A DNA stretch of 37,055 nucleotides from positions 1 to 37,055 of the forward strand of contig JALOKP010000056.1 in NCBI GenBank assembly GCA_025456425.1, given 5' to 3'. Below, in pieces: positions 12,464 through 21,116 of this stretch; position 1 is the first letter of the stretch; every line of letters begins with the position of its first letter. A program made the position numbers and the translations under genes. The notes beneath the pieces were generated by a model, which saw only the letters and a program-made list of their open reading frames with translations, was not told the DNA's origin and searched no databases. Source of the DNA: Acidobacteriota bacterium (GTDB lineage: Bacteria > Acidobacteriota > Polarisedimenticolia > J045).

Positions 12464-14890
12464 CTACTCGACGACGTAGTAGCGCACGGTGCCCGCGGCC
12501 GCCGTCCCCGCCCCCGCGTCGGTCCAGCCGAGGGTGGAGGTCGTGGCCGCGATCGAGGCGTCGGTGAACCCGGTCGGGGCCGCGTTGCGGAACACGGTGT
12601 AGCTCGCCTGCCCGGTGGAGGTCCAGCTCAGGACGACGTCGGAGCCGACGCGCCTCACGGTCAGCCGGGCCGGGGTCGCCGGCTCGTTGAAGGTGAAGGC
12701 GGCGGCCAGCGTGCCGACCTGCTCGCCGGGGTTGACGACCTGGACCTCGAATCGGCCCGGCGGGTGCGGCGGCGCGACGGCGGTGATCGAGCTGCCCGAC
12801 GCGACGACGACGCTGCGCGCGCTGACGCCCCCGATCCGGACCGTGGCGTCGGGCTGGAAGCCGCTCCCCGTCACGGTCACGGCCTGGCCGCCGGCCGCGC
12901 TTCCCGCGGCGGGGCTGATCGCGCCGACCACCGGGACCGTCAGCGGCAGCAGCCGCGTGTCGGCCAGCGCCGTCGCAGCGGACACCGCGACGCCGCGGCG
13001 CCAGCGCGGCGCGAGCCCGGTCGCGGCGGGCGGGGTGTAGCGCAGGTCCCAGGTCCCGGCGTCGACCGAGACGTTGTAGAAGCCGTCCGCGCCGCTGTCG
13101 TTGTGCGGCGTGAAGAGCGGCGCGCCGGCGCCCGGCGCGAAGAACTCGACCTCGACCGCCCCCACCGGCGCGCCGCTCTGGTCGTTCCGGACGAAGCCGG
13201 AGACCAGGAAGCCCGCCGGCAGCGTGGTGTCGGGAAGCGGCGTGTCGGCCAGCAGCGCGGTGTTCGGCCGCCGGGCCGGGCGCAGCGCCAGGCCCGCCGG
13301 CGGGATGTACTCGATGTCGTACGAGGCCGGCTTGACCATCGTGGCGTAGCTCCCCCCGCCGTCGGTGGTGTCGCGCGGGGTGAACGACTTGTTGCGCGTC
13401 CCCGGCGCGAGGAAGTCGAGATCGACACCCGCCACCGGCGCGCCCTGGGGGTTGCGCACCACGCCGCTCGCGGTCGCGCCGGTGACGAGGCGGAGGGTCG
13501 GCAGGGTCGTCGCTCCGGAGACGGCGACCTGCCGCTGTTCGTCGGGCGCGAGCGGCGAGCAGGACGGCGGCGTGTAGAGCACGTCCCAGGCGCTGCCGGC
13601 CGGAACGATGACCGTGAAGGTGCCGTCGGCACGCGTGTTGTCGTGGGCGATCCGGACCGCTTCGCGGGTCACCGAGTCGACGACGTCGACGTCGACCGAG
13701 AGCACCCCCTGGCCATCGGGGGCGATCGTCCGGCCCGAGAGCGCGAAGCCCGCGGCGAGGACCGTGTCGCCCAGTGTCGTCGCCCCGCTGACCGCGACCC
13801 CCGCGAGCCGCGAGACCAGCAGCGTCCGCCCGGCCGGCGGCTCGACGTTGATGTTGTAGGTGCCGGTCGGGACGAAGATCGAGTAGTTTCCCGAAGCGTC
13901 GGTGGTGTCGAAGTTGGTCGGCTGGCGCTGGCCGTTGTTCGCGTCGAAGAACTTCAGCTCGGCCTCGGCGACCGGCTGGAGGGCGCCGTCCACCACGCGC
14001 CCGGTCACCGTGACCCCGGCCTGCAGGGTGGTCGTGCCGAGGTCGGTGTTGCGGTCGACCCGCACCCCCGACTTGCGGTCGGGGACCAGCCCCTTGCAGC
14101 GCGGCGGGTTGTGCTGGACGGAGTAGGTCCCGGCCGGAAGGTAGGTCGTGAAGCGGCCGGCGGCGTCGGTGTTGTCGTTGGCGGTCGGGACCTTCTCACC
14201 GCTGCAGCCGTCGTAGACGTTCAGGTCGACGTTGCGCAGCGCGGCGTTCTGCTTGTCCTTGACCAGGCCGGTGAGCTGGAAGCCGGTCGCGAGCGTGTCG
14301 CTCAGCCCGGAGACGTCGGACTGCACGACCAGGCCCCGGCGCCGACCGGTGACGTAGGTCGTGCCCGAAGGGGGACGGTACTCGACGTCCCAGGTCCCCG
14401 GCGGGACGCGCATCGAATACGCCCCGCTGGCGCTGGTCACGTCCTTGCCGACGTAGACCCGGTCCCCCGTCGAGGCATTCACCCACTTGAGGTCGACCCC
14501 CGCGATCCCCGCCCCGGAGCCGTTCCTCACGGTCCCGGAGACGAGCCGGCCATTGGGGAGCGTGTTCACGCCCAGGTTCGTGTTGGCGCTGACCACGACG
14601 TCGGGCCGTTCCTTGCCGGCCGAAGCCGAACCGGCGGGCGGCGTGAAGCGGACGTCGTAGGTCCCGCCCGCCACGCTGACGCTGAAGCTCCCGTCGGCCG
14701 CGGTCTTGTCGTTGACCAGGAAGAGGCTCTCGCCGGTACAGACGTCGACGAAGTCGAGGTCGACGTTGGCCATCCCCTGGCCGGCCTCGTTCTTCACCGT
14801 GCCGGTGACGGTGAACGCCAGCGCGGCGCCGGGGGCGGCGAGGATCGACAGGGCGAGCAGGAGACGGGTGAGCGGGCGGCATCGGGTCAT
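12464..14890 (-). CDS. Secreted protein with seven carboxypeptidase-regulatory-like repeats, an IPT/TIG domain and a C-terminal Fn3-like module
   Basis: 808 residues. Start ATG 14890 overlaps the exporter stop as ATGA. A signal peptide ends near ALA-FTVTG. Seven repeats of about 90 residues follow (about 26-650), each with a strand like FTVTGTVKNEAGQGMANVDL, a D-rich turn before DGSFSV and a strand like GTYDVRFTPPAG. Then comes an IPT/TIG segment (VVGAISPAAGSAAGGQAVTV) and a terminal module (VVLSWTSTGQASYTVFRN ... VRYYVVE). Such proteins are usually extracellular or surface structural or adhesive proteins. Paired cysteines occur in repeats 1, 3 and 5. The neighbouring ABC exporter and barrel suggest a dedicated route or maturation, unproven. 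Confidence 0.88.
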   Translation of the reverse strand: MTRCRPLTRLLLALSILAAPGAALAFTVTGTVKNEAGQGMANVDLDFVDVCTGESLFLVNDKTAADGSFSVSVAGGTYDVRFTPPAGSASAGKERPDVVVSANTNLGVNTLPNGRLVSGTVRNGSGAGIAGVDLKWVNASTGDRVYVGKDVTSASGAYSMRVPPGTWDVEYRPPSGTTYVTGRRRGLVVQSDVSGLSDTLATGFQLTGLVKDKQNAALRNVDLNVYDGCSGEKVPTANDNTDAAGRFTTYLPAGTYSVQHNPPRCKGLVPDRKSGVRVDRNTDLGTTTLQAGVTVTGRVVDGALQPVAEAELKFFDANNGQRQPTNFDTTDASGNYSIFVPTGTYNINVEPPAGRTLLVSRLAGVAVSGATTLGDTVLAAGFALSGRTIAPDGQGVLSVDVDVVDSVTREAVRIAHDNTRADGTFTVIVPAGSAWDVLYTPPSCSPLAPDEQRQVAVSGATTLPTLRLVTGATASGVVRNPQGAPVAGVDLDFLAPGTRNKSFTPRDTTDGGGSYATMVKPASYDIEYIPPAGLALRPARRPNTALLADTPLPDTTLPAGFLVSGFVRNDQSGAPVGAVEVEFFAPGAGAPLFTPHNDSGADGFYNVSVDAGTWDLRYTPPAATGLAPRWRRGVAVSAATALADTRLLPLTVPVVGAISPAAGSAAGGQAVTVTGSGFQPDATVRIGGVSARSVVVASGSSITAVAPPHPPGRFEVQVVNPGEQVGTLAAAFTFNEPATPARLTVRRVGSDVVLSWTSTGQASYTVFRNAAPTGFTDASIAATTSTLGWTDAGAGTAAAGTVRYYVVE
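12940..14815 (-). repeat. Seven tandem protein-level repeats (CarboxypepD_reg-like)
   Basis: Within the secreted protein gene the units begin with FTVTG, RLVSG, FQLTG, VTVTG, FALSG, ATASG and FLVSG. Each ends about 60 residues later with a PP-containing turn such as FTPPAG, YRPPSG, HNPPRC, VEPPAG, YTPPSC, YIPPAG or YTPPAA. The units are clearly diverged in sequence, so this is an old amplification and not a recent DNA duplication. Confidence 0.85.
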
Positions 14891-17858: not shown

Positions 17859-18506
17859 CTACCCCTCCAGCCGCGAGCTGACCCCCGCCAGCCGGTCCGG
17901 GTCGACCACGACGATCGAGCCCCGCTCGAGCCGCACGCAGCCGCGCTGCTCGAGCCCCTTCAGCGCGCGCGAGACGACCTCGCGCGCGGTCCACAGGTCG
18001 GCCGCGATCTTCTCGTGCGTCATGTCCAGCCGTCCGGCTCCGGCGGTGCCGGGGCCGACCCGCGCGCGGTCGAGCAGGTAGGAGGCCAGCCGGTCGTCGA
18101 CCGACAGGTCCTGCGTGTCCTCGAGCAGCTCGATCAGCGCGCGCAGCCGCCGGGCCAGCACGCCGAGGAAGGTCGTGCGCAGGAACTCGTCCTGGGCGAA
18201 CAGCTTCCGGAACGCGGCGGCGGGCAGGGCCCAGCCGGTCGCCGCTTCGTCGGCCGCGGCGCTGGCGAGCAGCGGCTGCTCGCTGAGCGCGGCCAGCGAC
18301 GAGACCAGGCACAGCTCGCCGGGCACCACCCGGTAGAGCGTCCCCTCGCGGTCGCCGGGACGCGAGCGGAAGATCCGGACGCAGCCTTCGTCGAGCAGCG
18401 CGACCTGGCGGCAGGGCTCCTTCTCGACGAAGCAGGTCGAGCCGCGGCCGAGCGCGACCGGGCTGCCGTAGCGGCGGAAGAGGGTGGCCAGCGCGACGTT
18501 CATCAT
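17859..18506 (-). CDS. Crp/Fnr-family transcription regulator
   Basis: 215 residues; tandem ATG codons at 18506 and 18503. Residues about 15-120 form a cyclic-nucleotide-binding-type beta-roll (VALLDEGCVRIFRSRPGD, VVPGELCLVSSLAALSE). A dimerisation helix follows (LARRLRALIELLEDT), then the HTH_Crp winged helix with MTHEKIAADLWTAREVVSRA and LEQRGCVRLERGSIVVVD. Fnr-type clustered iron-sulfur cysteines are not obvious, although Cys occurs in the roll (CFVEKEPC), so redox sensing cannot be excluded. It sits 86 bases upstream of the P-loop/exporter operon in the same direction and divergent from the cytochrome group; either may be its target. Confidence 0.9.
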   Translation of the reverse strand: MMNVALATLFRRYGSPVALGRGSTCFVEKEPCRQVALLDEGCVRIFRSRPGDREGTLYRVVPGELCLVSSLAALSEQPLLASAAADEAATGWALPAAAFRKLFAQDEFLRTTFLGVLARRLRALIELLEDTQDLSVDDRLASYLLDRARVGPGTAGAGRLDMTHEKIAADLWTAREVVSRALKGLEQRGCVRLERGSIVVVDPDRLAGVSSRLEG

Positions 18507-18574: not shown

Positions 18575-18686
18575 GCCGTTCCCGCGGCCCGGCGGGGCGG
18601 CTTAGCGGTAAGTCATTGGACCTCGGTCACAGACCCCGGGAATGGAATACGGCGATCCTCCCTCCTCTGCTGCGAGGAGGTTGCAG

Positions 18687-19105
18687 GTGGCGGTGTCCCC
18701 CACGCCCGAACGAGCGCCCGGCGCGGCGCGCGCCGTCACCCGGCTCGCGGCGATCCTGCTGGCTGCGCTTCCCGCGGCCTGCGAGAACCCCGACCCGCAC
18801 ATCTTCCCCGACCCGCTCGATCCGGGCGGTGGCGGCACGGTCAGCCTGGCGCGCGACGTGCAGCCGCTGTTCACGCTGCACTGCGTGGGCTGCCACGGTG
18901 GCGCCAGTCCCGAGGCGCAACTGACGCTGGAGTCGGGGCGCCTGTACGACCGGACGCTCGGCGCGGTCGGCGTCGCGAGCTGGGAGCTGCCGCCGCTGCT
19001 GCGGATCGAGCCGGGGGCGAGCGACCGCTCGTACCTCGCTCGCTCTCGCCCGGCGAGATCGAAATCATCCGGGAGTGGATCGATGACGGCGCGCGCGACA
19101 ACTGA
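18687..19105 (+). pseudogene. c-type cytochrome lipoprotein with an internal deletion and frameshift
   Basis: Start GTG 18687 follows GAGGAGG. The lipoprotein signal ends at LPAAC, and a heme site CVGCH lies in LFTLHCVGCHGG. Up to DRSYL (19037) the first frame holds. The expected family ending LSPGEIEIIREWIDDGARDN then appears in another frame (19043-19105, TGA). Between them the stretch that normally carries the axial-Met region is missing. The junction is the repetitive CTCGCTCGCTCTCG (19035-19048), a plausible slippage or deletion point. Without a shift the frame runs on in phase into the next cytochrome gene. Either a real disrupted gene, a recent gene fusion, or a sequencing/assembly indel. 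Confidence 0.65.
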
Positions 19106-20366
19106 CGCGCGCGGCGGCGCGCGGGGCGGCGGGCGCCGCGGCCGCGCCGCCGGCCTCGCGCTGGCCGCGACGCTGGCCGCGCTGGCGGCGCCGGCGGCGC
19201 GCGCGACGGCCGAGGCCGAGGCCTACGCCGCCGCGCAGCGCCTGGTCGAGGCGCGCTGCCTGGGCTGCCACGGGCCGGACGAGCCGGAAGCGGGACTGGA
19301 CCTCACGCCCGAGCGTTTGGCCCGCGCGACGGTCAACGTCCCCTCGCACACGCAGCCGGGACTGCGGCTGGTCGATCCCGGCCGGCCCGACCGGAGCGCG
19401 CTCTACCTCAAGACGCTGCCGGCAACCGAAGGCCACTACCGCGGCCCGCGGATGCCGATGCGCGCAGCGCCGCTCGACGCGGCGGAAACGGCGGTGCTGA
19501 AGAACTGGATCGGCTCGTTCGACCCCGCGGTCTGGGGCGAGCCCGCACCGGCGGCCGCAGCCGAGGCAGCCCCGTCGGCCGAGTCGCGGGCGCCGGAGGG
19601 CTCGCGCCCCGTACCGATCTTCCAGGACACGCGGCTGCTCCAGCTCCCCACGACCGAGACGCTTGGGCCGACCGGGATCGAGACCCGCTTCCTGCACCGC
19701 TTCAAGGAGTCGGTGGAGGAGGCCGGGTGGTACGGCCTGGGCGGGCTCGACGGCGGCGCGTGGACCTCGTTGGGGGTCGCCGTCGGGCTCGGCCCGCGCT
19801 TCGACCTGGAGCTGCGGCGGACGAACCTCTTCAAGGACTGGGCGCTCAACGGGAAGCTCGCGCTCGCGACGCAGCGCCCCGACGGGTCGCCGCTCTCAGT
19901 CGCCGTCGAGCTGGGATACGAGTACCTGCAGGAGCGGAGCGCCGCCAACCGGAACCGCGTCTCGCTCTCGGTCCCGATCGCGCGGCGCTTCGGCGAGCGG
20001 CTCTCGCTGCTGGCGGTCCCGATGTATGCCTCGCGCGCCAACCCGTTCGACCCGGACGACACCGGGGGCACCGTCGCGCTGGGGCTCGGCGGCGAGTTCT
20101 GGCTCAACCCGCACCTCTCCCTGACGGGCGAGTGGATCGGCCAGCTCGCCGGGGTCGACCTTCCCTACCAGTCGGGCTCGGTCGCCTTCTCGATCTTCAC
20201 TTCGCGCCACATCTTCCGGCTCGTCCTGACCAACACCAGCGGCATGCACACCAGCCTCTACGCGCCGGGTGGCGAACTCGATTGGAGCGAGGGCGAGTTC
20301 CGGCTGGGCTTCAACATCGTGAGGACCTTCGACCGCGCCGGCTCGCGCCGCGCATCCGTCCCCTGA
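19083..20366 (+). CDS. c-type cytochrome fused to an outer-membrane beta-barrel (DUF5777-like)
   Basis: 427 residues from ATG 19083 behind GGGAG. An Arg-rich signal peptide ends near AARA-TAEA. The single heme site is C59-L-G-C62-H63, with a candidate axial Met in PRMPMRAAP and a typical ending AETAVLKNWIGSF (about residue 145). A Pro/Ala linker leads to a barrel domain (about 185-427) beginning FQDTRLLQLPTTETLGP, with alternating strands (VAVELGYEYLQERSAANRNR, GEFWLNPHLSLTGEWIGQLA). The order heme then barrel resembles, in architecture only, porin-cytochrome fusions such as Cyc2. It may pass electrons at the outer membrane with the cupredoxin encoded 18 bases downstream (inference). Confidence 0.85.
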   Translation: MTARATTDARGGARGGGRRGRAAGLALAATLAALAAPAARATAEAEAYAAAQRLVEARCLGCHGPDEPEAGLDLTPERLARATVNVPSHTQPGLRLVDPGRPDRSALYLKTLPATEGHYRGPRMPMRAAPLDAAETAVLKNWIGSFDPAVWGEPAPAAAAEAAPSAESRAPEGSRPVPIFQDTRLLQLPTTETLGPTGIETRFLHRFKESVEEAGWYGLGGLDGGAWTSLGVAVGLGPRFDLELRRTNLFKDWALNGKLALATQRPDGSPLSVAVELGYEYLQERSAANRNRVSLSVPIARRFGERLSLLAVPMYASRANPFDPDDTGGTVALGLGGEFWLNPHLSLTGEWIGQLAGVDLPYQSGSVAFSIFTSRHIFRLVLTNTSGMHTSLYAPGGELDWSEGEFRLGFNIVRTFDRAGSRRASVP

Positions 20367-20384
20367 GCCCCTGGAGGACCGACC

Positions 20385-21116
20385 ATGCGACGACTCCCGT
20401 TCCTGCTGTCCGCGGCGCTGCTGGCCGCCGGCCTATCCTTCGATGCGCCCGCCGTGCGGGCCCAGGTCGCCTGCCGCACCGCAAACTGCGCCAACGCCGC
20501 CACGCCACCCACCGCCTGCCAGCAGCGCGCCGTACCACGCCGCCTGGCGATTACCGTCGCCAGCTTCAGCTACACGCCGGACGCGCCGCGGATCGAGCCC
20601 GGCGATTGCGTCCTGTGGGACGCCTCGGGCGGCGTGCACAGCGCGGCCGCCGATTCCTGCCCCGACGACGGCGTGAACTCCTGCACCAGCCCCTCCCCAC
20701 CCACGTGCAAGTGGGACACCGGCAACATCTCCGCCCCGCCCAGCGCGAGCGTGGACGCGGTCTGCAGCTACGACGCGGTGGCCTTCCCCGGCAACACGAG
20801 CTGGGGCTTCTACTGCCGCCAGCACGACAACCCGTCCCACACCGGTTTCCCCGGGATGGCGGGCACGCTGCGCGTGACACCGCTGATCGTGCTGAGCGTC
20901 GGCCGCAGCGGGGCGACGGCGAACCTGTCGTGGACCGGCGGCGACGGTCAGTTCAAGGTGGAGATCGCGGCCAACGACCGGACCTTCCAGACCGGCCGAA
21001 GCACGACGAATCCGACCGGCGGCGCCTCGGGCACGAGCTACGCCGACGCGGTCGCGCCCCCCGCGGGAACGGCGCGCTTCTACCTGGTCCGCAACCGCCA
21101 GACCAACGAGACCTGA
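20385..21116 (+). CDS. Secreted cupredoxin (plastocyanin-like) with C-terminal Fn3-like module
   Basis: 243 residues; ATG 20385 behind GGAGG. The signal peptide ends near AVRA-QVAC. The cupredoxin domain (about 52-165) begins RRLAITVASFSYTPDAPRI. It carries a complete type 1 copper set: His85 (GGVHSA), Cys144 and His147 (FYCRQH) and Met158 (PGMAG). Eight further cysteines in the mature domain suggest disulfides. The C-terminal part (LSVGRSGATANLSWTGG ... ARFYLVRN) resembles the tails of the subtilase and the seven-repeat protein. It is likely a periplasmic or surface electron carrier, possibly the partner of the cytochrome-barrel protein just upstream. Confidence 0.88.
   Translation: MRRLPFLLSAALLAAGLSFDAPAVRAQVACRTANCANAATPPTACQQRAVPRRLAITVASFSYTPDAPRIEPGDCVLWDASGGVHSAAADSCPDDGVNSCTSPSPPTCKWDTGNISAPPSASVDAVCSYDAVAFPGNTSWGFYCRQHDNPSHTGFPGMAGTLRVTPLIVLSVGRSGATANLSWTGGDGQFKVEIAANDRTFQTGRSTTNPTGGASGTSYADAVAPPAGTARFYLVRNRQTNET

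Follow-up and report, generated by a model that had tools for sequence, protein, structure and literature searches.

A DUF5777 barrel fused to a single-heme domain, between a monoheme lipoprotein and a cupredoxin: a candidate outer-membrane redox module in an Acidobacteriota bacterium

DUF5777 is a family of barrel proteins with no described function that repeatedly partners one-electron carriers, and in the window analysed here (the whole 37,055-nucleotide stretch of an Acidobacteriota genome) a member of this family is fused to a single-heme domain, with a monoheme lipoprotein encoded upstream and a cupredoxin downstream. We consider it probable, though by no means assured, that these three proteins form an outer-membrane redox module in which the barrel would tether a one-electron carrier at its periplasmic mouth. 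The genes and sites concerned are as follows:

17859-18506, minus strand: divergent gene for a Crp/Fnr-type regulator (Pfam HTH_Crp_2, E=5.5e-15)
18687-19105, plus strand: gene for a monoheme c-type lipoprotein, frame broken (homologs in G009, G006 and others)
19083-20366, plus strand: signal peptide, PSCyt1-type monoheme domain, Ala/Pro linker and DUF5777 barrel (Pfam, gene calls and relatives)
19257-19271, plus strand: heme c attachment motif CLGCH of the fused domain (translation)
19446-19460, plus strand: PRMPM motif of the fused heme domain, containing its probable distal Met (kept in relatives)
19620-20330, plus strand: DUF5777 barrel of approximately 12 predicted strands (alignment of 53 barrels)
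20385-21116, plus strand: gene for a secreted cupredoxin whose type 1 copper ligands are His/Cys/His/Met and which ends in an FnIII-like domain (ligands and relatives)

The window is part of contig C78, from a genome of 4.28 Mb (85% complete) in which the fusion is the sole copy of DUF5777. The preliminary description had placed a CxxCH heme domain and an outer-membrane-type barrel in one polypeptide and had called the barrel DUF5777-like, and both points stand: positions 19083-20366 (+) constitute a single 427-aa frame in which CLGCH precedes the barrel, the order seen in porin-cytochromes, and residues 180-416 match DUF5777 (PF19089) with E=1.5e-39 (136.2 bits against a gathering cut-off of 23.1), the profile being covered end to end (positions 1-247 of 247). 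The fused heme domain matches the Pfam family PSCyt1 (E=3.9e-5; 24.6 bits against a cut-off of 22) and is joined to the barrel by an Ala/Pro-rich linker of approximately 30 residues. The CxxCH motif and the PSCyt1 score point to a c-type cytochrome, with covalent heme attachment predicted. Sequence searches of the PDB found nothing related to the fusion, to the cupredoxin or to either of the barrel profiles. A wider contig scan yielded two distant matches, both in Planctomycetota and to the heme domain only, and the viral contigs scanned gave no match. A search for sigma-70 promoters and terminators found no match, a result of little weight at 77% G+C.

The gene preceding the fusion was overlooked in the preliminary description and represents a third redox gene. 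Its product carries the heme motif CVGCH (18882-18896) and a lipobox (near 18774-18788), and its frame is broken by a net loss of approximately 67 bases near 19026-19040, in the stretch 18990-19060, relative to the intact lipoproteins of G006 and G009, which belong to the same family. The lost segment corresponds to the conserved KLEG...RMP stretch, including the probable distal Met, and the remainder of the window copy is readable in another frame; the loss is either an assembly error or a mutation. As it shifts the lipoprotein into the frame of the fusion, a mechanical open reading frame of 574 aa spans 18642-20366, and its interpretation as a genuine diheme fusion was rejected since the other frame still encodes the C-terminus of the upstream gene and a signal peptide is still present internally. 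The end of the lipoprotein gene and the start of the fusion overlap by 23 bases (ATGA...ACAACTGA), a length that is identical in G006, which suggests translational coupling of the two. The lipoprotein is homologous to the fused heme domain (hhalign 99.9%, E=2.5e-33), and the pair thus looks like a duplicated carrier, one copy being lipid-anchored and the other barrel-anchored. In three genomes of the class (L207, L217 and L218), a homologous monoheme lipoprotein adjoins DUF1501/DUF1800-like genes and another predicted secreted protein.

On the other side of the fusion, the cupredoxin gene starts at 20385, 18 bases past the fusion stop, and its earlier description as a copper protein with a full type 1 site was borne out. 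The ligand candidates, located at 20628 (His of GGVHSA), 20811 (Cys and His of YCRQH) and 20853 (Met of GMAG), make up the predicted His, Cys, His and Met set with a Cys-x2-His spacing, and all four are conserved in relatives of 45-49% identity. The window copy has no match in Pfam; related type 1 cupredoxins from the same class match Copper-bind. The last 79 residues (20877-21113) constitute the FnIII-like domain, perhaps a surface or secretion domain, which is also found at the ends of three further proteins encoded in this genome (loci L151-L153).

Alignment of 53 DUF5777 barrels revealed approximately 12 predicted amphipathic strands, joined by short turns and longer loops; strand borders were placed by eye, and automatic peak counting yielded 13 segments, of which two fell outside the assigned strands. 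We infer an outer-membrane location for the barrel, and from the order of turns and loops its N- and C-termini would be expected in the periplasm. Residues H205, G221, D223, R246, H376, F378, F410, N411 and R414 are invariant across the 53 barrels and are likewise held in a 15-sequence alignment that includes Bacteroidota. AlphaFold, applied to the fusion as a single sequence without an alignment, returned a pLDDT of 33, and profile searches with the barrel identified no porin of known structure. No paper naming DUF5777 was found in a search of freely accessible, published literature.

DUF5777 is present in 118 of the 396 sampled genomes of the phylum (approximately 30%) and in six of the 41 sampled genomes of the class. 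Gene neighbourhoods were compared across 97 DUF5777 loci (93 from the phylum and four Bacteroidota plasmids), with genes called by a simple coding model and heme and copper sites scored by motif. In 75 of these 97 loci, a heme- or copper-site domain was either fused to the barrel or encoded at most two genes away. An N-terminally fused heme motif was found in 27 loci and a fused CuA motif in two, while small heme proteins on the same strand and copper-site proteins, each at most two genes away, were found in 42 and 22 loci, respectively. Among background genes at least four positions away in the same loci, six of 256 encoded small heme proteins and none of 256 a copper site (Fisher test, p=2e-6 for heme and p=1.5e-7 for copper; the loci are related, so these values are not strict probabilities). 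The pattern covers several well-separated clades of the barrel tree. Stand-alone CuA-type cupredoxins (CxxxCxxxHxxM) also adjoin DUF5777 barrels at L063:3983-4351, L076:4083-4436, L085 and L088, and no oxidase or N2O reductase gene is found in these stretches; the CuA identity is supported in L063 by matches of the neighbouring cupredoxin to NosZ and CoxB models (E about 1e-13).

The fused N-terminal domains comprise a PSCyt1-type heme domain (in the window and its relatives), a class-I-like heme domain, a heme domain with the motif CxxCHxxPAGGGPRNxFG, a single-heme Reelin-like domain and a CuA cupredoxin. When profiles were compared, no relation was found among the PSCyt1, PAGGGP and Reelin-like heme domains, and the class-I-like domain may be distantly related to PSCyt1 (88%); thus, the same N-terminal end of DUF5777 is joined to a CuA cupredoxin and to heme domains of at least three unrelated types. 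On the barrel tree, the N-terminal label requires ten changes, against a mean of 33.7 when shuffled. A redox role for DUF5777 is therefore supported both by the enrichment of heme and copper partners over the background and by the fusion of unrelated carriers to one end of the barrel.

The partners of the window fusion also occur with a different barrel. Full-length relatives of the cupredoxin were found in G025, G029 and G023, all of which are without DUF5777, and in G025 and G023 a five-gene run encodes the cupredoxin, a small protein, a diheme cytochrome, a monoheme lipoprotein and a heme+porin fusion of 358-364 aa, with one N-terminal heme and a barrel other than DUF5777. Relatives of this heme+porin fusion in G029, G012 and G064 each follow directly after a monoheme lipoprotein, one of the five fusions has a Porin_4 match, and the PAGGGP heme domain found on other DUF5777 barrels is a relative of theirs (hhalign 96%). 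Since G032 presents, in order, the cupredoxin, a small protein, the monoheme lipoprotein and a heme-DUF5777 fusion, and G025 and G023 carry the same cupredoxin and lipoprotein, sequence comparison indicates that two unrelated heme-barrel fusions occupy the same place beside the same partners. The sister-family fusions (L154, L156 and L204-L206) resemble the window protein in their single N-terminal heme, their barrel and the same lipoprotein upstream, and those of L154 and L156 additionally in sharing its cupredoxin, but they differ in that the barrel is not DUF5777 and the heme domain is PAGGGP-related. The corresponding gene runs (L154:2857-6315, L156:2866-6149, L204:3979-6833 and L205:1902-6052, with the cupredoxin in L154 and L156) encode, besides a small protein, a diheme cytochrome and the monoheme lipoprotein, fusions of Cyc2-like layout with partly Cyc2-like residues before CxxCH (AEPYLAVRTG). 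The cupredoxin is a frequent rather than a fixed companion of the fusion, as the close relative G009 encodes the lipoprotein and the fusion with no cupredoxin adjacent. On the Bacteroidota plasmids, DUF5777 is found beside monoheme lipoproteins, YceI and, in one case, a Rieske protein; the barrel, its invariant residues and the lipoprotein neighbours are as in the window, whereas YceI and sometimes a Rieske protein stand where the window has a type 1 cupredoxin and, unlike the window protein, many members of the family have no fused redox domain.

In the reading we favour, DUF5777 would form a narrow outer-membrane barrel of approximately 12 strands whose two ends lie in the periplasm, and its N-terminal end would tether the single-heme domain by means of the flexible linker at the periplasmic mouth. 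The preliminary description had asked whether the heme can enter the barrel and had suggested electron movement across or along the outer membrane; a heme inside the barrel does not agree with a domain of approximately 100 residues on a flexible linker, which should not fit inside a 12-strand barrel. Electron tunnelling physics dictates that one heme cannot span the outer membrane, and therefore either a substrate would come through the barrel or the barrel would act as an anchor; for the same reasons of size, linker and distance, the fused heme domain most likely sits in the periplasm. The small barrel and periplasmic heme that the preliminary description had named as counting against it, in conjunction with a lack of conserved redox partners, are thus probably real, but the partners are clearly conserved in relatives. 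The likeliest job of the module would be electron exchange with a small soluble substrate coming through or to the barrel, as has been proposed for Cyc2 and ferrous iron, with the monoheme lipoprotein and the type 1 cupredoxin shuttling electrons between the respiratory chain and the fused heme. High potentials are usual for Met-ligated heme and type 1 copper, and since the genome additionally has COX1-type heme-copper oxidases and no match to MtrB/PioB (PF11854), we infer that a substrate outside the cell would be oxidised and that its electrons would flow towards oxygen. Several points weigh against the module reading: the AlphaFold model has a pLDDT of 33, the neighbourhood counts lack phylogenetic independence and share their loci with the background, the copper proteins are known by motif, G009 encodes no cupredoxin beside its fusion, relatives of the cupredoxin also occur in genomes without DUF5777, and the lipoprotein gene is broken in the window assembly.

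To our knowledge, few outer-membrane electron-transfer systems have been described (Cyc2, Mtr/Mto/Pio and similar). A broader proposal, which we put forward tentatively and which may well prove wrong, is that DUF5777 constitutes a widespread, unrecognised class of small outer-membrane redox port, present at least in the phylum and in Bacteroidota, through which a dissolved donor or acceptor of electrons would reach one heme c or CuA centre at the periplasmic mouth, and which would have arisen independently of Cyc2 and Mtr. If this is true, approximately 30% of the sampled genomes of the phylum, in addition to Bacteroidota, hold a system that was missed in surveys of iron and extracellular electron metabolism. 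The association of DUF5777 with one-electron carriers points to an unstudied route of outer-surface redox chemistry in bacteria, and the repeated independent fusion of unrelated carriers renders the function of this uncharacterised barrel family directly testable.

The same genomic data fit pure anchoring, in which DUF5777 merely holds periplasmic one-electron carriers at the outer membrane while nothing passes through it. The small predicted barrel, the flexible linker and the periplasmic side assigned to the heme domain are all compatible with such a role, the fused carriers are interchangeable as would be expected with a passive tether, and the homologous partner is already tethered to the membrane as a lipoprotein. 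That same neighbour, however, illustrates that a lipid anchor would be the cheaper means to this end, and a barrel in which His, Asp, Arg and Asn positions stay invariant in both phyla exceeds the needs of a passive tether; we consider pure anchoring rather unlikely, and passage of a substrate through the barrel is preferred because the barrel keeps these invariant polar residues. These residues would also suit a channel for a metal ion, copper or a small organic substrate, with the heme and copper domains serving as redox enzyme or gate for the imported compound, for example in metal homeostasis outside respiration. Copper-site proteins in 22 of the 97 neighbourhoods and CuA domains in related fused forms speak for this reading. 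Against it, the genes adjoining the module include no transporter, chaperone or resistance gene, and most partners are monoheme carriers in which Met ligation is probable; we consider it distinctly improbable.

The comparison with Cyc2 drawn in the preliminary description holds for layout but not for homology. Cyc2 is a 16-stranded porin with the motif AXPXFAR[QK][TY] before CXXCH and PXL after it, and it is argued that a small substrate reaches its heme through the barrel (PMC8406198). The window fusion has an N-terminal single-CxxCH heme domain and a C-terminal outer-membrane barrel in the same order, and its cupredoxin recalls rusticyanin in the rus system of acidophiles, from which a descent from porin-cytochrome iron oxidases might be supposed. 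However, its barrel has approximately 12 strands as predicted by alignment and belongs to a separate Pfam family that retrieved no porin of known structure, the Cyc2 motif is not found around CLGCH, where the sequence is ATAEAEAYAAAQRLVEARCLGCHGPDEPEAGLDL, and no homology to Cyc2 was detected, such that membership of Cyc2 was rejected and descent as a divergent form is highly improbable. Also distinct from Cyc2, which acts in ferrous iron oxidation, are the PSCyt1-type heme domain and the tandem monoheme lipoprotein. The MtrCAB, MtoAB and PioAB conduits similarly pair an outer-membrane barrel with a c-type cytochrome, but their barrels have 26 strands and are threaded by a multiheme wire, as opposed to one heme and a small barrel in the present case. 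Among the 41 class genomes, six have DUF5777 and eight have MtrB/PioB above the cut-off, with no overlap between these small numbers.

Regarding the remainder of the window, it is possible that the divergently encoded Crp/Fnr-type protein (17859-18506) regulates the redox module. Further upstream, positions 12464-14890 (-) encode a secreted protein of approximately 800 aa with approximately seven carboxypeptidase-regulatory-like repeats followed by an IPT-like and FnIII-like end.
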